Source: Crassaminicella thermophila
Lineage (GTDB): Bacteria; Bacillota; Clostridia; Peptostreptococcales; Thermotaleaceae
DNA: 64,000 nt
NCBI RefSeq assembly: GCF_008152325.1
Contig: NZ_CP042243.1
Span: forward strand, 1,431,026-1,495,025
Reading direction: 5' to 3'
The translations under genes were made by a program, and so were the position numbers. The notes below the pieces were generated by a model. That model saw nothing but the letters and a program-made list of their open reading frames with translations, was not told where the DNA came from and made no database searches. Each line of letters starts with the position of its first letter. Positions within the stretch are counted from its first letter, which is position 1. Positions 5,084 through 48,982 of the stretch are shown piece by piece.

Positions 5084-6097
5084 ATGAAATCATCTCTAAA
5101 GAATAGAATGATAATATTTATATTTTCTATCGTTATTTTATTAGGTGGATTTAAACTTTATTTTGATAAGCAAGTGGGTCCTGTAAATGCTAATAGTGAT
5201 AATGAAGTTACGATAGAAATACCTATTGGTGCTTCTACAAATAAAATTGCAAAAATATTAAAAGAAAAGAATGTAGTCAATAATGAATTAGCTTTTCGTA
5301 TTTTAAGTAAATTATCAAAAACGGATGGTAAAATGCAAGCAGGGATATATTTACTTAAAGTAAATATGTCTGCTAATGAAATTATAAATACTTTAGTAAA
5401 GGGAGAAACTATAAAAGATACAGTAAAATTTACTATTCCTGAAGGATTTGAGTTTAATCAAATTGTAGACAGATTGGAAACAAAAGGATTAATCAATAGA
5501 GATGAATTTGTGAGAATAGCAAATTATGGAGATTTTGAGTATAAATTCTTAAGAGATGTTCCTAAAGGACAAAATAGACTTGAGGGATATTTGTTTCCTG
5601 ATACGTATGAAGTTTCTAAAAATGCTTCGGAAAGAGAGATTATTATAAAGATGCTTAATCGTTTTGATGATATTTTTGTTGATACTTATTATAATAGAGC
5701 AAAAGAATTAAATATGAGCGTAAATGAGATCGTAACCCTTGCGTCTATAATAGAAAAAGAAGCTAAGCTAAATAAAGAAAGGGCACTTGTATCAAGTGTT
5801 TTTTATAATAGAATGAAAAAAGGTATGTATCTTCAATCATGTGCAACAGTTCAATATGTTTTAGATAAAAGAAAAACAAAGCTAAGTTTAAAAGATCTAG
5901 AAGTTAATTCTCCTTATAATACTTATAAATATTATGGTTTACCACCAAAGCCAATAGCGTCACCTGGAAAAGCATCTATAGAAGCAGCTTTGTATCCAAA
6001 AGATTCTGATTATCTATATTTTGTTGTAGGGAAAAATGGAGAGCATCATTTTAGTAAGACCTATAAAGAGCATTTAAATGCAAAGAATGGTAATTGA
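5084..6097 (+). CDS. mltG: Endolytic murein transglycosylase MltG (YceG family)
   Basis: 337 residues. One N-terminal transmembrane helix (about 9-26), a LysM-like region, then the YceG domain with EGYLFPDTYEV (167-176) and the catalytic region TLASIIEKEA, in which E224 matches the catalytic Glu of E. coli MltG. It cleaves nascent glycan strands at the membrane and so sets their length. ATG follows GGAGGTAT. It opens the mltG-trmR-trhP-udk-pbpI cluster that mirrors yrrL-yrrM-yrrO-udk-yrrR of Bacillus subtilis. Confidence 0.95.
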   Translation: MKSSLKNRMIIFIFSIVILLGGFKLYFDKQVGPVNANSDNEVTIEIPIGASTNKIAKILKEKNVVNNELAFRILSKLSKTDGKMQAGIYLLKVNMSANEIINTLVKGETIKDTVKFTIPEGFEFNQIVDRLETKGLINRDEFVRIANYGDFEYKFLRDVPKGQNRLEGYLFPDTYEVSKNASEREIIIKMLNRFDDIFVDTYYNRAKELNMSVNEIVTLASIIEKEAKLNKERALVSSVFYNRMKKGMYLQSCATVQYVLDKRKTKLSLKDLEVNSPYNTYKYYGLPPKPIASPGKASIEAALYPKDSDYLYFVVGKNGEHHFSKTYKEHLNAKNGN

Positions 6098-15379: not shown

Positions 15380-15455
15380 AATTATGTTGAGAAATAAATT
15401 TGCATAGATTAAGAAGGAATTCACTAAAACATATTGAAATAATAATTGAATCTAC

Positions 15456-15531
15456 TGTGTTAGAGCAAATGATGCATGGATGTATTTGGACGCCTATGCC
15501 ATGCTGATGTAGTGGCGTAACCGACTAACAA
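15456..15531 (+). promoter_or_regulatory. Cyclic di-GMP-II riboswitch
   Basis: The segment matches the c-di-GMP-II layout: P1 5' arm TGTTAG (15458-15463), ATGATGCATGG after an A-rich link, TTGGACGCC, a variable hairpin (GCCATGCTGATG), then TAGTGGCGTAACCGAC, and P1 3' arm CTAACA (15525-15530). The internal CGCC / GGCG helix and the AACCGAC segment are hallmarks. A terminator whose 5' arm re-uses the P1 3' arm follows, so ligand binding should prevent termination (ON switch), as known for the C. difficile pilA1 locus. Confidence 0.88.
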
Positions 15532-15561
15532 TATATATAATATATGTTGTTAGTTCTTTTT
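15524..15561 (+). terminator. Riboswitch-controlled terminator
   Basis: ACTAACAATATAT pairs with ATATATGTTGTTAGT, then TCTTTTTT. The left arm overlaps the P1 3' strand of the riboswitch, so the two folds exclude each other. Confidence 0.8.
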
Positions 15562-15626
15562 AATTCAGAAGAAAGATTTTGGGTTCACAATAGTGTTGAA
15601 TGAATATAGAAGATGAGGGATGTAGC

Positions 15627-17306
15627 ATGAATAGAAAGAATAAAAGATTAGGAGATTTATTAATTGATGCAAAACTTATTACAAAAGATCAACTTGATCG
15701 TGCGCTAAATCTTCAAAAAACAACAGGTAAAAAATTAGGGGAATTATTGATTGCTGAAGGGTTAGTCAATGAAAAACAAATTATTGAAGTATTAGAATTT
15801 CAGTTAGGAATACCTCATTTAGATTTAGAAAAATATTTTATTGATCCAGAAATACCAAGACTTATTACTGAAAGATTAGCAAAAAGGCATATATTAATTC
15901 CTGTAAGAAAGGAAAAAGATAAATTAATTGTTGCTATGTCTGATCCTTTAAATATTTTTGCTATAGATGATGTGAAAATTGCAACAGGCTTAGAAGTAAG
16001 TTTAGCTATAGCAACAAAGGAACAAATTTTAAATGCTATAGAGCAATATTATGGAAGAGAAAGAGCAGAGAAAGCTATAGAGGATTTTAAAAGAGAATAT
16101 GACATGACAAATATTGAAGATATAGAAAATACTCTACTGGATGACATTGATAATTCACCTACTGTTAGATTGGTTAACTCTATTATCAAGCAGGCGGTTA
16201 AATTAAAAGCAAGTGATATTCATTTGGAGCCAACGGAAAAAAATCTTCGTATTCGATTTCGTATTGATGGGGAACTACAAGAAATCATGACTATAGCAAA
16301 ATCAGCTCATTCATCCATTGTGTCAAGAATAAAAATATTGAGCAATATGGATATTGCAGAAAAAAGAATACCTCAAGATGGGCGAATTGAGATGATTTTT
16401 GATGAGAGAGAGATGGATATGCGTATATCTACGCTACCAACAGTACATGGAGAAAAAATAGTTATTCGTATTCTTGACAGAGGGAATTTTATATTTTCTA
16501 AAAATCAACTTGGCTTTACAAACAAGAATCTAAATATTTTTGAAAAAATTATAAAAAATCCTTATGGTATAGTTTTAGTAACAGGCCCTACTGGAAGTGG
16601 AAAAACTACAACTTTATATGTCGCTTTAAAAGAGCTAAACAAAATTAATAGAAATATTGTTACAATAGAAGATCCTGTTGAATATAGATTAGATGGAATA
16701 AGCCAAGTACAGGTTAATAATAAAGCAGGATTATCTTTTACAAGTGGTTTAAGAGCTATCTTAAGACAAGATCCTGATGTAATAATGATAGGAGAGATAA
16801 GAGATTCTGAAACAGCTAGAATCGCAGTGCGTGCTGCAATAACTGGACATTTGGTTTTAAGTACTATGCATACAAATGATACTGCATCTACAGTAACAAG
16901 ATTGGTTGATATGGGAATTGAACCTTATTTAGTATCAGCCTCAGTAGTTGGTATTATTGCACAAAGGCTGGTTAAAAGAATTTGTTTTAACTGTAAAACG
17001 ACTTATATACCAAATTTTATGGAAAAAACCTTTTTAAATATAGATAATGATGTAACCTTATACAAGGGGAAAGGTTGTAGTGTGTGCAACTACACAGGTT
17101 ATAAAGGCAGACAAGTAGTGCATGAGATTATGCCAATTAATGAGAAAATAAGATTTTTAATTGATGATAAGGCAGGGATAGATAAAATTAGGAAAGAAGC
17201 ATGTAATATAGGAATGACATCATTAAAAGAAAATTGCAAACAATTAGTGTTAGAAGGAGTTACTACGATTGATGAATTGATTCGTATTGCATATAGCTTA
17301 GAATAG
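15627..17306 (+). CDS. pilB: Type IV pilus extension ATPase PilB
   Basis: 559 residues from the ATG at 15627, which has GAGGGA six bases upstream; the in-frame ATG at 15600 has none. Residues 7-60 carry the duplicated RLGDLLxxxxLIxxxQLxxAL / LGELLIxEGLV pattern of the MshEN domain, known in some PilB/MshE proteins to bind c-di-GMP. ATPase core: Walker A GPTGSGKTTT (about 320-328), Asp box, Walker B DPDVIMIGEIRD, and a zinc site CFNCK...CSVCNYTG. It powers pilus assembly in the cytoplasm. First gene after the c-di-GMP riboswitch. Confidence 0.95.
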   Translation: MNRKNKRLGDLLIDAKLITKDQLDRALNLQKTTGKKLGELLIAEGLVNEKQIIEVLEFQLGIPHLDLEKYFIDPEIPRLITERLAKRHILIPVRKEKDKLIVAMSDPLNIFAIDDVKIATGLEVSLAIATKEQILNAIEQYYGRERAEKAIEDFKREYDMTNIEDIENTLLDDIDNSPTVRLVNSIIKQAVKLKASDIHLEPTEKNLRIRFRIDGELQEIMTIAKSAHSSIVSRIKILSNMDIAEKRIPQDGRIEMIFDEREMDMRISTLPTVHGEKIVIRILDRGNFIFSKNQLGFTNKNLNIFEKIIKNPYGIVLVTGPTGSGKTTTLYVALKELNKINRNIVTIEDPVEYRLDGISQVQVNNKAGLSFTSGLRAILRQDPDVIMIGEIRDSETARIAVRAAITGHLVLSTMHTNDTASTVTRLVDMGIEPYLVSASVVGIIAQRLVKRICFNCKTTYIPNFMEKTFLNIDNDVTLYKGKGCSVCNYTGYKGRQVVHEIMPINEKIRFLIDDKAGIDKIRKEACNIGMTSLKENCKQLVLEGVTTIDELIRIAYSLE

Positions 17307-17316
17307 GAGGAAATAC

Positions 17317-18372
17317 ATGGATATTACTAATTTACTAAAGATAGCTACTGATAAAAAAGCATCTGATATTCACATTACCGTTGGAACTCCTCCAACAATA
17401 AGAGTGAATGGGAATTTGATAAGATGTGGAGATAATCCTCTTTCACAAGATGATACTGAGCTTTTGGTAAAACAAGTATTAAATGAGGAACAAATAAAGA
17501 AATTAGATAAAAAAGGTGAATTAGATTTATCTTTTTCTATCATGGGTTTAGGAAGATTTCGAATTAATGCTTTTAAACAAAGAGGAACCTATAGCATAGC
17601 ATTAAGAGTTGTATCTCTTAAGATTCCAACTATGGAAGAATTAGGATTGCCTCCTGTATTAAGTGAGTTAGCAAGAAAAAAGAAAGGGCTGGTATTAGTA
17701 ACAGGACCTACTGGAAGTGGAAAATCAACTACCCTCGCTTCTATGATTGATTTGATTAATAACGAAAGATATTGTCATATTTTAACACTTGAAGATCCAA
17801 TTGAATATATACATAGTCATAATAAAAGTATTGTAAATCAAAGGGAAATTGGTAGCGATTCTACAAGTTTTGCAAATGGACTAAGAGCAGCATTAAGACA
17901 AGATCCTGATGTTATTCTAGTAGGAGAGATGAGAGATCTAGAGACTATTAGCATAGCTATAACAGCTGCAGAAACAGGGCACTTAGTATTATCAACATTA
18001 CATACTTTAGGAACAGCTCAAACTGTAGATCGTATTATTGATGTATTTCCACCACATCAACAACAACAAGTAAGAATACAATTAGCTGCTTCATTAGAAG
18101 GAATAATATCTCAACAATTGCTTCCTAAAGCTGATGGAAGTGGAAGAGTTGCAGCATATGAAATAATGGTAGCAACACCAGCTATTAGAAATCTTATAAG
18201 AGAAGGAAAGACTCATCAAATTCAGACTTCTGTTCAAACAGGAGCAAGATTTGGAATGCAAACAATGGATAACTCTCTTATGGAATTATATAATAAAGGA
18301 ATTATTTCAAAAGAAATTCTTTTGTCTTATGCTATTGATAAAGATATGGTAAGACGATTTGTAAGCTTATAA
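17317..18372 (+). CDS. pilT: Type IV pilus retraction ATPase PilT
   Basis: 351 residues, usual PilT length. KKASDIHITVGTPPTIRVNG opens the N-terminal domain; Walker A GPTGSGKST (about 129-137), Walker B DPDVILVGEMRD, His box GHLVLSTLHT, and the C-terminal AIRNLIREGK motif specific for PilT. It depolymerises pili and drives twitching. ATG is preceded by AGGAGG, 10 bases after pilB. Confidence 0.95.
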   Translation: MDITNLLKIATDKKASDIHITVGTPPTIRVNGNLIRCGDNPLSQDDTELLVKQVLNEEQIKKLDKKGELDLSFSIMGLGRFRINAFKQRGTYSIALRVVSLKIPTMEELGLPPVLSELARKKKGLVLVTGPTGSGKSTTLASMIDLINNERYCHILTLEDPIEYIHSHNKSIVNQREIGSDSTSFANGLRAALRQDPDVILVGEMRDLETISIAITAAETGHLVLSTLHTLGTAQTVDRIIDVFPPHQQQQVRIQLAASLEGIISQQLLPKADGSGRVAAYEIMVATPAIRNLIREGKTHQIQTSVQTGARFGMQTMDNSLMELYNKGIISKEILLSYAIDKDMVRRFVSL

Positions 18373-44226: not shown

Positions 44227-44452
44227 TGATTCCTTTGAAGTTGCAATAAAAAAACTTGAAGAAATTGTTATGCTACTAGATGAAGGAAAGTTAACTTTAG
44301 ATGAGACATTGACTCTTTATGAAGAAGGAATTAGAATATATAGATATTGTAATCGTAAACTAGACAATGCAGAACAAAAGATAAGTTTAATGATGAATGA
44401 GAATAAAGTACCTTTTGATTTTGCAGAATCAGATGATTTTAAGGGGGAATAG
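44192..44452 (+). CDS. xseB: Exodeoxyribonuclease VII small subunit
   Basis: 86 residues: FEVAIKKLEEIVMLLDEGKLTLDETLTLYEEGIR is the family signature. TTG start at 44192, with AAAGGAGGATC upstream, overlaps the end of xseA by 35 bases, consistent with tight coupling of the two subunits. Confidence 0.93.
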   Translation: MNAFINLKLQSNDSFEVAIKKLEEIVMLLDEGKLTLDETLTLYEEGIRIYRYCNRKLDNAEQKISLMMNENKVPFDFAESDDFKGE

Positions 44453-44453
44453 T

Positions 44454-45344
44454 ATGGACTTTAAAATAGAATTACAAAAAAAAGCGGATATAATTGATAA
44501 AGCATTAGATAAATATCTTCCAAAGGAAACTAGTCCTCAGAATCTTATTTTTGATGCTATGAGATACAGTGTTTTTGCTGGAGGAAAAAGGTTAAGACCT
44601 ATTCTTATGACTGCAGCATCTGAATTTGTAGGAGGTAAAATAGATGATATTTTACCATTTGCATGTGCAATTGAAATGATACATACTTACTCATTAATTC
44701 ATGATGATTTACCTGCTATGGATAATGATGATTATAGAAGAGGAAAATTAACGAATCATAAAGTATATGGTGAAGGGATTGCAATTCTTGCAGGAGATGG
44801 TCTTCTAAATTATGCTTTTGAATTAATGATTAAAGATGCACTAGAGGATAATAAAAATTTACAAAGAAAAATTTTAGCTATGAAAGAGATTGCATCTGCT
44901 TCTGGGATTTATGGTATGATTGGAGGACAAGTTGTTGATTTGATTAGTGAAAGTAAAAAAATAGATGCAGATACATTAGACTATATTCATAATAATAAAA
45001 CTGCAGCACTTATTGTTGCATCTATTAGAGCTGGCGCTATAATAGGTGGAGCTGATGAAGAATTATTAAAATGTCTTACTGAATTTGCAAAGAATGTTGG
45101 ACTTGGTTTTCAAATTACTGATGATATTTTAGACATTGTTGGAGATGAGAAGAAGCTTGGCAAGAAAGTTGGAAGCGATATTGACAATCAAAAGGCAACA
45201 TATCCGTCAATACATGGTTTAGATGTGTCAATAAAAAAGGTGAATGAGCTATTTAATAAAAGTGTTAAATCTATAGAGCGTTTTGGAGAAAAAGCAGAAT
45301 TTTTTATTCAATTGTCTGATTATCTTGTAAAAAGGGAATATTAA
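44454..45344 (+). CDS. ispA: Geranyl/farnesyl diphosphate synthase
   Basis: 296 residues from the ATG at 44454 (AAGGGGGAAT upstream). Both Asp-rich motifs are present: LIHDDLPAMDNDD with the FARM, and FQITDDILDIVGD (SARM). GGKRLRPIL is the IPP-binding patch. It makes C10-C15 isoprenoid diphosphates; dxs nearby supplies precursors. Confidence 0.95.
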   Translation: MDFKIELQKKADIIDKALDKYLPKETSPQNLIFDAMRYSVFAGGKRLRPILMTAASEFVGGKIDDILPFACAIEMIHTYSLIHDDLPAMDNDDYRRGKLTNHKVYGEGIAILAGDGLLNYAFELMIKDALEDNKNLQRKILAMKEIASASGIYGMIGGQVVDLISESKKIDADTLDYIHNNKTAALIVASIRAGAIIGGADEELLKCLTEFAKNVGLGFQITDDILDIVGDEKKLGKKVGSDIDNQKATYPSIHGLDVSIKKVNELFNKSVKSIERFGEKAEFFIQLSDYLVKREY

Positions 45345-45361: not shown

Positions 45362-45805
45362 TTGCACTTTTTTCAACAAATTGGCGAAAATGATGTATTA
45401 TACGCCACTTTATTATCTTGGTTTATAGCACAATTGTTGAAAGTAATTATTACGCTTATAAAAGAGAAGAAAGTTAATTTATATAGATTTGTTGGTTCTG
45501 GTGGTATGCCTAGCTCTCATTCTTCTTTAGTTATGGGATTATCAACAGCAATTGGACTAAAGCGAGGATGGAATTCTACTCAATATGCTCTTGCTCTTGC
45601 TTTTGCACTAATTGTTATGTATGATGCATCAGGTGTTAGAAGAGCTGTTGGGAAACAGGCAATCATATTGAATAAGATTATAGAGGATAGGCATAAACAT
45701 AAACCTATTGGTGAAAGAAGACTAAAAGAATTGATAGGTCATACACCTGTTGAAGTTGTTGCAGGGGCACTTTTGGGTATTTTAATTGCAAATATGGTTA
45801 TTTGA
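45362..45805 (+). CDS. Divergent PAP2 (acid phosphatase/vanadium haloperoxidase-related) membrane protein
   Basis: 147 residues, YuiD-like. VGSGGMPSSHSSLVMGLSTAIG and SGVRRAVGKQA and HTPVEVVAGALLGI are the divPAP2 motifs, with three or four membrane segments. Probable lipid-phosphate phosphatase; in Firmicutes it often lies by isoprenoid genes. TTG start at 45362 with GAGGAAGTG upstream. Its TGA stop lies inside the -35 box of the OLE RNA promoter. Confidence 0.88.
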   Translation: MHFFQQIGENDVLYATLLSWFIAQLLKVIITLIKEKKVNLYRFVGSGGMPSSHSSLVMGLSTAIGLKRGWNSTQYALALAFALIVMYDASGVRRAVGKQAIILNKIIEDRHKHKPIGERRLKELIGHTPVEVVAGALLGILIANMVI

Positions 45806-45830
45806 CATAAGTATTCATTTATGTTAAAAT
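45802..45830 (+). promoter_or_regulatory. Sigma-A promoter of OLE RNA
   Basis: Consensus TTGACA (45802-45807), 17-base spacer, TAAAAT (45825-45830). Transcript expected to start near 45837. The -35 overlaps the stop codon of the preceding gene. Confidence 0.8.
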
Positions 45831-45836
45831 ACAGTT

Positions 45837-46455
45837 TGCTTTACGAGTGGCGCAGTATTCTAGTCAGTTCTATCATTTCTGAAGGCGGGGCTAAAAATCC
45901 GTCAAAGGGCACATCGATGAAGTTCCTGGTATCGGCTGCTGACGCCCAGTTGGGGGTCGATTCTGGGAGTAAGAAGAAGGGGGCGATCCACAATGGCATG
46001 TGGGCGATGACCCTCTCTTCGTGGAGACCTAAAAAAAGAATAAATTTCTATTTTTTAGGATAAACCTACAATGTGATGCATTTACTTTTGTGTTACGTGT
46101 AGCGTAGCCTGCCTTGAGTGGAATAGGTAGATAAATAGGTACAAACGTTATTTATATGGGCCCATATGAACAACGCTATTGCTATTTGAAACCTATTCTG
46201 CAAAAGAGGCTAAGAAATGATGTGACTGTTGAGGAAAACTCCTAGACTGTTCGTAAGAAGCATGCTGAGGATTACAGTGCGGACTAAGTGGTAGTCTAGT
46301 CATACTTTTGGTGACAAAGTATAAAGAGATTTAATGGGAAACCTCTGATTTGGCGACAAACCAGTATCTCTTTGGGAAATCCTACTGGACCTAAGCCGTA
46401 AAATTTACTCAGCATGTTGCCACTCAAAATATTAAAGGTATTTTGATTAAGCATT
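45837..46455 (+). ncRNA. ole: OLE RNA (ornate large extremophilic RNA)
   Basis: About 620 bases without a credible gene, clearly richer in G+C than the surroundings and full of pairing segments, for example CTCCTAGACTGTTC near 46240 and GGCATGTGGGCGATGACCC near 45993. Size, the position between isoprenoid genes, and the membrane protein OapA directly downstream match the known OLE locus of anaerobic and extremophilic Firmicutes. OLE RNA forms a membrane ribonucleoprotein with Oap proteins and is linked to stress and magnesium tolerance. A short reading frame at 45821-46063 here is not a gene. 3' end is approximate. Confidence 0.85.
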
Positions 46456-46499
46456 AATAATTACACGGGAACTAAATATAGCAATGAAGGTGTTTCCAA

Positions 46500-47102
46500 A
46501 TGAGAAAAATAAGAATAAATATAGATGGATATAATATAAAATGGGTAATCATTATAACAATATGGACCTTTTTTCTTGCTGTAGGAATGAGTTTTTCATC
46601 AGAAATAGTATTAAAAAATGTCAATATAGTTACAGCATTTATTATTCTTATTATGATTATTTTTATAGGTATAATTTTTGATTTGATTGGAATTGCCGTA
46701 GCATCGGCCAGAGAAAAACCATTTCATTCTATGGCAGCAAATAAAATTATAGGTGCAAAATATGCGGTAAAATTAGTGAGAAATGCTGGTCCTGTTTCAA
46801 ATTTTTGTAATGATGTGATTGGTGATATTTGTGGAATTGTTAGTGGAGCAGCAGCAGCAATTATTATTTTACAAATCCGTAAATTAAGTAATTTAAATAT
46901 TCCTTATTTAAGTGTTATTTTGAGTGGATTAGTTGCAGCGATTACTGTTGGTGGAAAAGCCATAGGAAAAGAAATTGCTTTAAAAAAATCTAAAGAAATA
47001 GTTTTTCGTGTCGGTAAGATACTATATTATGTTTATAATAAATTTGGAATCGATTTCTTACCTAAAAAAAGAAATGTAAGAATCAATCAGAAAGAGAGAT
47101 GA
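46500..47102 (+). CDS. oapA: OLE RNA-associated membrane protein OapA
   Basis: 200 residues with four membrane helices (WVIIITIWTFFLAVGMSF; IVTAFIILIMIIFIGIIFDLI; GIVSGAAAAIIILQ; YLSVILSGLVAAITVGG). Conserved polar loop DLIGIAVASAREKPFHSMAA followed by GAKYAVKLVRNAGPVSNFCNDVIGDICG. In B. halodurans the adjacent gene product binds OLE RNA at the membrane. ATG has GAAGGTG upstream and sits just beyond the RNA. Assignment rests on context, length and topology. Confidence 0.85.
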   Translation: MRKIRINIDGYNIKWVIIITIWTFFLAVGMSFSSEIVLKNVNIVTAFIILIMIIFIGIIFDLIGIAVASAREKPFHSMAANKIIGAKYAVKLVRNAGPVSNFCNDVIGDICGIVSGAAAAIIILQIRKLSNLNIPYLSVILSGLVAAITVGGKAIGKEIALKKSKEIVFRVGKILYYVYNKFGIDFLPKKRNVRINQKER

Positions 47103-47107
47103 AATAA

Positions 47108-48982
47108 GTGAGAGATTTATTATCAAGCATTAAATCTCCTGATATATTAAAGAATGCAAGTGATGAAGAATTAGTATATTTGGCAGAAAATATACGAAAA
47201 TTTCTCTTAAATAATGTTTCAAAAACAGGAGGTCATTTAGCTTCGAATTTAGGTATAGTAGAATTGACTTTAGCAATTCATAGTGTTTTTGATAGTCCTT
47301 ATGATCATATTATATGGGATGTAGGCCACCAAGCTTATGTACATAAAATATTAACTGGGAGAAAACATTTATTTCATACGTTAAGAAAACATAATGGTTT
47401 AAGTGGTTTTCCTAAAAGGTCAGAGAGTAAACACGATTGTTTTGAAACAGGGCATAGCAGTACTTCTATTTCTGCAGCATTAGGTATAGCTAAAGCTCGT
47501 GACTTGAAAGGAAAAAAAAATTCTGTTATTGCAGTAATTGGAGATGGGGCACTAACCGGTGGAATGGCATTTGAAGCATTAAATCATGCTGGACATGCTA
47601 ATACAGACCTTATTGTTATATTAAATGACAACGAAATGTCTATATCACAAAATGTTGGAGGAATTTCTAGATATTTAAATCGATTAAGAACCGACCCAAA
47701 GTATTTTAAAGTGAAAGATGATGTTGAATATATTCTTAATAAAATTCCTGCTGTTGGAAAAGCTATGTACAAAACCGCTGAAAAAGCAAAAGATAGTTTG
47801 AAATATTTTTTAGTACCAGGAATTATTTTTGAAGAACTGGGTTTTACCTATATTGGTCCAGTAAATGGGCATGATATAAAAGAATTAAAAGTTGTTTTGC
47901 AAAGAGCAAAAAATATTAAAGGGCCGGTTTTTATTCATGTAATTACAAAAAAAGGGAAAGGCTATAAATATGCTGAAAAGAATCCAGATAAGTTTCATGG
48001 AATAGGTCCTTTTGATATTGAAAGTGGTAAATTAATTAAAAGTGGTAATAAAAGGGAAAGTTATTCATCTATATTTGGAAAAACACTAGTTAATTTAGCA
48101 AAAGAAGATCTAAGAATAGTAGCAATTACAGCAGCAATGCCGTCAGGAACAGGTTTAAATGATTTTGCATCAATTTATCCAGATCGTTTCTTTGATGTTG
48201 GAATTGCAGAACAACATGCTGTTACTTTTTCTGCAGGATTAGCTTCTAATGGTTTAAAGCCTGTATTTGCTGTATATTCAACATTTTTACAAAGAGCTTA
48301 TGATCAAGTTGTTCATGATGTATGTCTGCAAAATTTGCCAGTTGTATTTTGTATAGATAGGAGTGGATTAGTAGGAAATGACGGAGAAACACATCATGGT
48401 GTATTTGATATATCATACTTAACACATATACCTAATATAACTATTATGGCTCCTAAAGACGGTACTGAATTGATTGAAATGTTAAAATATGCAGTAAAGT
48501 TAAATTCTCCAGTTGCTATTAGATATCCTAGGGGAGAAAGTGACGATTTTACTTTTATTAGCGATAATTATTGTATTGAGGATAGGAAAGCTGAAGTCCT
48601 TTTGAGTGGAAAGGATGTATGTATAATTGCTTTTGGAAAAATGGTAAGAACTGCTTATGAAGCAGCTAAAAGATTAAAATCTAAAAATATCCATTGTACA
48701 GTGATTAATGCTAGATTTGCAAAACCTTTAGATGAAAAGACAATTTTAGAAGAATGTTCGGATATAAAAAATATTATTACATTAGAAGATAACGTAGTAA
48801 AAGGTGGCTTTGGTAGCGAAATACTAGCATTATTATGTAAGAGTAAAAAGAATGATAAAAATATAAAAATATTAGGTCTTCCAGATAAATTTGTTGAACA
48901 TGGAGATACAGAAGAACTTATGAGATATTATAATCTTGATGTGTATAGTGTAATTGAACATATAAAAGAAATGATAAGTTAA
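47108..48982 (+). CDS. dxs: 1-deoxy-D-xylulose-5-phosphate synthase
   Basis: 624 residues. TPP-binding GDGALTGGMAFEALNHAG...NDNEMSISQN, GHSSTSISAALG, and C-terminal DVGIAEQHAVTFSAGLA with catalytic Glu. It makes DXP from pyruvate and glyceraldehyde 3-phosphate, first step of the MEP pathway feeding ispA. GTG start six bases after oapA. Confidence 0.97.
   Translation: MRDLLSSIKSPDILKNASDEELVYLAENIRKFLLNNVSKTGGHLASNLGIVELTLAIHSVFDSPYDHIIWDVGHQAYVHKILTGRKHLFHTLRKHNGLSGFPKRSESKHDCFETGHSSTSISAALGIAKARDLKGKKNSVIAVIGDGALTGGMAFEALNHAGHANTDLIVILNDNEMSISQNVGGISRYLNRLRTDPKYFKVKDDVEYILNKIPAVGKAMYKTAEKAKDSLKYFLVPGIIFEELGFTYIGPVNGHDIKELKVVLQRAKNIKGPVFIHVITKKGKGYKYAEKNPDKFHGIGPFDIESGKLIKSGNKRESYSSIFGKTLVNLAKEDLRIVAITAAMPSGTGLNDFASIYPDRFFDVGIAEQHAVTFSAGLASNGLKPVFAVYSTFLQRAYDQVVHDVCLQNLPVVFCIDRSGLVGNDGETHHGVFDISYLTHIPNITIMAPKDGTELIEMLKYAVKLNSPVAIRYPRGESDDFTFISDNYCIEDRKAEVLLSGKDVCIIAFGKMVRTAYEAAKRLKSKNIHCTVINARFAKPLDEKTILEECSDIKNIITLEDNVVKGGFGSEILALLCKSKKNDKNIKILGLPDKFVEHGDTEELMRYYNLDVYSVIEHIKEMIS

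Follow-up and report, generated by a model that had tools for sequence, protein, structure and literature searches.

At this locus ispA, DUF212, OLE, oapA, and dxs follow one another in that order (Table 1), an arrangement kept in all 29 other genomes that were first compared (30/30 with the present one). The earlier note had proposed a structured noncoding gene of about 620 bases at 45837-46455, identified as OLE RNA and lying between a PAP2-like gene and oapA within an isoprenoid cluster, and this placement was borne out: the PAP2-like gene is the DUF212 gene directly upstream, and ispA and dxs flank the group. A cmscan search of the window (the whole 64-kb stretch of DNA that we analyzed) matched the Rfam OLE model RF01071 over model positions 1-616 of 616, i.e., at full length, with 538.9 bits and an E value of 3e-155, far above the curated cutoff of 50 bits for this model. 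Lack of a covariance-model match over the proposed interval had been singled out as the finding that would speak against OLE, and the match is there; the interval itself agrees with transcription beginning some 7 nt past the -10 box. Searching the 3.08-Mb genome (2 contigs, 99.8% complete) returned this single copy, and no OLE match was obtained in 14 control genomes.

Table 1. Features of the OLE locus, OLE partner genes encoded elsewhere in the genome, and free-standing OLE genes of a relative
Feature	Position	Strand	Basis or detail
ispA-type farnesyl/geranylgeranyl diphosphate synthase, upstream neighbor	44397..45344	+	PF00348, E 1.6e-59; NF045485 FPPsyn
DUF212 (divergent PAP2) gene	45362..45805	+	PF02681, E 6e-52; TGA stop 45803-45805
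OLE promoter, sigma-A type	45802..45830	+	TTGACA 45802-45807, 17 nt, TAAAAT 45825-45830
OLE RNA, full-length form	45831..46439	+	RF01071 match; covariation in 20 aligned sequences
P9 hairpin tip, ATATGGGCCCATAT	46154..46167	+	Self-complementary GGGCCC at 46158-46163
oapA, CNNM-like membrane protein (predicted), 200 aa	46500..47102	+	Position, DVIGD motif, predicted fold
dxs	47108..48982	+	TIGR00204, 862 bits
OapB, KOW-type RNA-binding protein, 95 aa	L039:1181-1468		PDB 7k9b 'OLE-associated protein B', E 4e-15
OapC (YbxF), L7Ae-type kink-turn protein	L033:1474-1743		PDB 4lck YbxF, E 1.5e-16
Free-standing OLE genes without oapA (G013)	L034:4591-5180 and L035:4576-5125		Each with its own promoter

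The fold of the RNA is backed by covariation. When the window sequence was aligned with 19 relatives (RNAalifold), two-sided changes with pairing kept were found at 82 of the 173 consensus pairs, a pair being counted when at least one sequence had both sides changed with the pairing intact. The regions of the OapC kink turn and of the OapB site at P12.2/P13 are present and conserved at the level of alignment columns. We also weighed an 80-aa reading frame inside OLE (45821-46063) and dismissed it: it falls within RNA that is itself structured and conserved, and its conservation is accounted for by the covariance pattern. Compared with the shortened OLE variants described previously (PMC11332333), which do not fit, the RNA agrees with the full-length form. 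It resembles the full-length OLE of Halalkalibacterium halodurans and Clostridium acetobutylicum in its length, its coverage of all model positions, the conserved A-rich P4 loop, the self-complementary P9 loop, its own promoter, and the adjoining oapA and dxs, as well as in a genome that encodes OapA, OapB, and OapC; it differs from them in the DUF212 gene between ispA and OLE, whose stop codon lies in the promoter.

Among the protein partners, OapA had no match by sequence in Pfam or NCBIfam and a sequence search of the PDB gave nothing useful; where these searches were barren, fold comparison resolved the protein. OapA was predicted (mean pLDDT 80) to form four long helices (residues 13-39, 43-69, 96-129, and 134-162), and the model matched MtCorB (7m1t), an archaeal CNNM protein, in its transmembrane part with Z 13.0 and 2.1 Å over 128 residues, the best unrelated rows of the comparison reaching Z 7 to 9. 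The DxxxD motif reads DVIGD here and DV[IV]GD across 30/30 genomes, where it is part of an invariant core, and both this motif and a resemblance to CNNM proteins have been published as hallmarks of OapA (PMC11332333). We assign the reading frame at 46500-47102 to oapA by its position, the DVIGD motif, and the CNNM-like predicted fold, with Anaerosolibacter, Anaerophilus, and Geosporobacter among the named relatives that hold the closest OapA proteins. The predicted fold is like the CNNM domain (PF01595) of the Mg2+ transporters MpfA and CorB, from which OapA differs by its DxxxD motif and by the lack of CBS and CorC domains.

The earlier note had suggested looking for oapB and oapC elsewhere in the genome, and both were found: oapB sits between map and infA, and oapC (ybxF) between rpoC and rpsL. 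A second L7Ae-type protein is the YlxQ homologue in the nusA operon. The genome also has one MpfA-type CNNM-CBS protein, which fits the reported pattern that OLE genomes carry 'no more than one' MpfA (PMC11332333). As judged from gene content, the known OLE RNP core (OapA, OapB, and OapC, the three partners known to be essential) is complete in this genome. We hold with high confidence that 45831-46439 is a genuine, intact OLE gene accompanied by the genes of its RNP, and the identity of the RNA, taken by itself, is near certain. The locus is in that sense a sound annotation of a known system, of modest novelty, which adds a complete OLE RNP set from a small, nearly closed genome. Among structured bacterial RNAs that have no known biochemical activity, OLE is, to our knowledge, one of the largest.

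The promoter of OLE carries 11 of the 12 consensus letters and a TG before the -10 box (extended -10), no other site in the region having more than 9 consensus letters, in agreement with the consensus promoter claimed in the earlier note. The TGA within its TTGACA is the stop codon of DUF212, so that the -35 box is, as had been noticed, built on the end of the previous gene; the overlap proved to be conserved across the order and not a quirk of a single genome. A promoter of its own inside a large operon is already known for H. halodurans ole (PMC9723947). Across 73 different DUF212-OLE loci, the promoter lies on the stop in 43, spanning eight families of the order. Within these 43, the stop is always TGA, the -10 is always extended, and the spacer is 17 nt in 42, with most spacer bases poorly conserved. 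In 11 loci a promoter-like site has shifted downstream, to 14 to 51 nt beyond the stop, and no clear promoter lies between DUF212 and OLE in the other 19; a TGA stop is found in just 3 of these 30. The genes of this operon are tightly packed, the loci are kin to one another, so that the Fisher value of 5e-17 for the TGA association does not describe independent events, and defining the class by a promoter on the stop in itself favors TGA, all of which would suit an overlap that arose as a by-product of compact gene spacing without selection. Such an origin is nonetheless unlikely for an overlap kept in eight families with this constancy of stop codon, spacing, and extended -10 amid mostly unconserved spacer bases, and with a TGA that becomes so infrequent once the promoter is displaced or missing.

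We found no earlier report of this promoter/stop overlap in the open literature, which does not establish that none exists; the conserved stop-codon promoter appears to be new, and the coupling of promoter position to the preceding gene's stop codon offers a lead. A stop-overlapping -35 box as a general trait of OLE was rejected: loci with ispA directly upstream nearly always have their promoter downstream of the stop. The 19 loci without a clear promoter come mostly from one family (f2), with the OLE start usually 12 to 39 nt past the DUF212 stop. Loci of this family without a recognizable OLE promoter are L027, L130, L131, L136, L139, L147, L150, L152, L158, and L159. With no recognizable promoter, OLE in this family must come from read-through and processing, and a family that lost the OLE promoter and depends on these two steps is a further lead.

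Cryo-EM has shown OLE dimers to be held partly by a symmetric P9 kissing loop, with switches of its core tetranucleotide already published (PMC12286853, PMC12265935), and by analogy with these solved structures the GGGCCC of P9 in the window corresponds to the kissing-loop dimer contact. A 6-nt palindrome lies near the P9 tip in 107 of 120 long-arm sequences, compared with 32 in composition shuffles. The palindromes are GGGCCC (56 sequences), TGGCCA (42), GAGCTC (3), and GGATCC (2), together with GGCGCC, CGGCCG, TGCGCA, and TTTAAA (once each); the remaining 13 long-arm sequences retain GGCC, and six sequences have a short P9 arm without a palindrome. Whereas the window OLE has GGGCCC in this loop, the Bacilli that we compared have TGGCCA. 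At the level of sequence, swaps among full hexamer palindromes support, and slightly extend, the known P9 contact.

In one relative (G013), OLE was matched three times (516.6, 494.1, and 398.1 bits), against a single oapA. The copy adjacent to oapA has no recognizable promoter, and the other two are free-standing. One of these is flanked by a YdcF-like gene and a gene for a MocR-type regulator (gene names given by reading translations), preceded by TTGACA-17-TATAAT and followed by the terminator AGCTCATCC TTT GGATGGGCT TTTTT; the other, with the promoter TTGACT-17-TATAAT, lacks the P9 arm and has a terminator-like hairpin that is weaker. The three RNAs form one clade (98/93) in which the two free-standing genes are sisters (100/100), and the copies most likely arose by duplication within the lineage and not from contamination. 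We lean slightly toward a history in which OLE was duplicated in this lineage and freed from the oapA/isoprenoid operon, the extra genes standing as single-gene units whose promoters are near-perfect, with the in-operon copy losing its promoter. Of the 78 genomes with OLE that were sampled in the order, two have more than one full-length OLE, this one and a fragmented genome (G059); in a sample of the class, scored for its two best candidates in each genome, no listed genome had more than one, a split-fragment case aside. A prior report of multiple OLE copies per genome was not found in the open literature, its absence not being thereby established, and the free-standing paralogs appear to be new. 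Functional copies would mean that OLE acts in trans and that its RNA forms, among them one unable to make the P9 dimer contact, can share out the work. The free-standing genes are also a lead, as a natural separation of the RNA from the expression of oapA. On the 5.5-kb piece that carries one of them (L035), the Clostridiales-2 small RNA (RF02937) occurs twice, at 683-766 and 5200-5284.

The same genes bear on the possibility that OLE is mainly a cis-acting leader of the oapA-dxs transcript (riboswitch-like or attenuating) and not a separate RNA. OLE directly precedes oapA, in a position fixed in 30/30 genomes, and no intrinsic terminator was found between the two, all as expected of a leader; the two free-standing genes, however, have promoters of their own and no oapA behind them, one ending in a clear terminator, and OLE of H. 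halodurans is a separate, abundant RNA of ~630 nt (PMC9723947). On this evidence a leader function is very improbable, and a riboswitch-type leader as the main role of OLE was rejected.

OLE is lost or damaged in some relatives. In G001 (L177:1527-3004) the order is ispA-DUF212-dxs with OLE and oapA both missing, which on gene order is a joint loss of the RNA and the OapA protein gene; the end of DUF212 still carries TTTGATATTC, followed by dxs, and this -35-like sequence at the DUF212 stop looks like a relic. In the metagenome-assembled G002 (L037:3319-3939), DUF212 coding sequence replaces the first ~100 nt of OLE, possibly through a 5' deletion or an assembly fault. Two genomes listed as lacking OLE (G044, at L161, and G032, at L163) have DUF212 followed by the OLE promoter and the OLE 5' motif; the contig probably ends at the locus in both, and OLE absence is overcounted in draft genomes. 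That the window OLE is itself a decaying or inactive relic, as the damaged or missing copies of G002 (possibly an assembly fault) and G001 might suggest, is extremely improbable for a copy scoring 538.9 bits over the whole model, with a near-consensus promoter and all partners present.

In the proposal of Fernando and Breaker, OLE takes for OapA the part that the CBS/CorC domains play in MpfA (PMC11332333). We tentatively hypothesize, with somewhat less than even confidence, that OLE and OapA make up a CNNM-like membrane module in which the RNA is the regulatory component, which we regard as its most likely role; Mg2+ transport or sensing by a CNNM-like OapA does not follow from co-occurrence. 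By extension from work on H. halodurans and the cryo-EM of clostridial OLE, the RNA would be transcribed from its own promoter. Published work further suggests that its 3' end may be cut from the oapA-dxs read-through transcript, that it may dimerize via contacts between loops, among them the GGGCCC at the end of P9, and that OapA would hold it at the membrane, with OapC bound at the kink turn and OapB at P12.2/P13. The assembled RNA would then assist cells under stress in adjusting their growth and their handling of Mg2+, as in the systems already described.

Elsewhere in the window, a c-di-GMP-II riboswitch (15453-15535, 58.7 bits) lies before genes for PilB-/PilT-like type IV pilus ATPases at 15600-18372.
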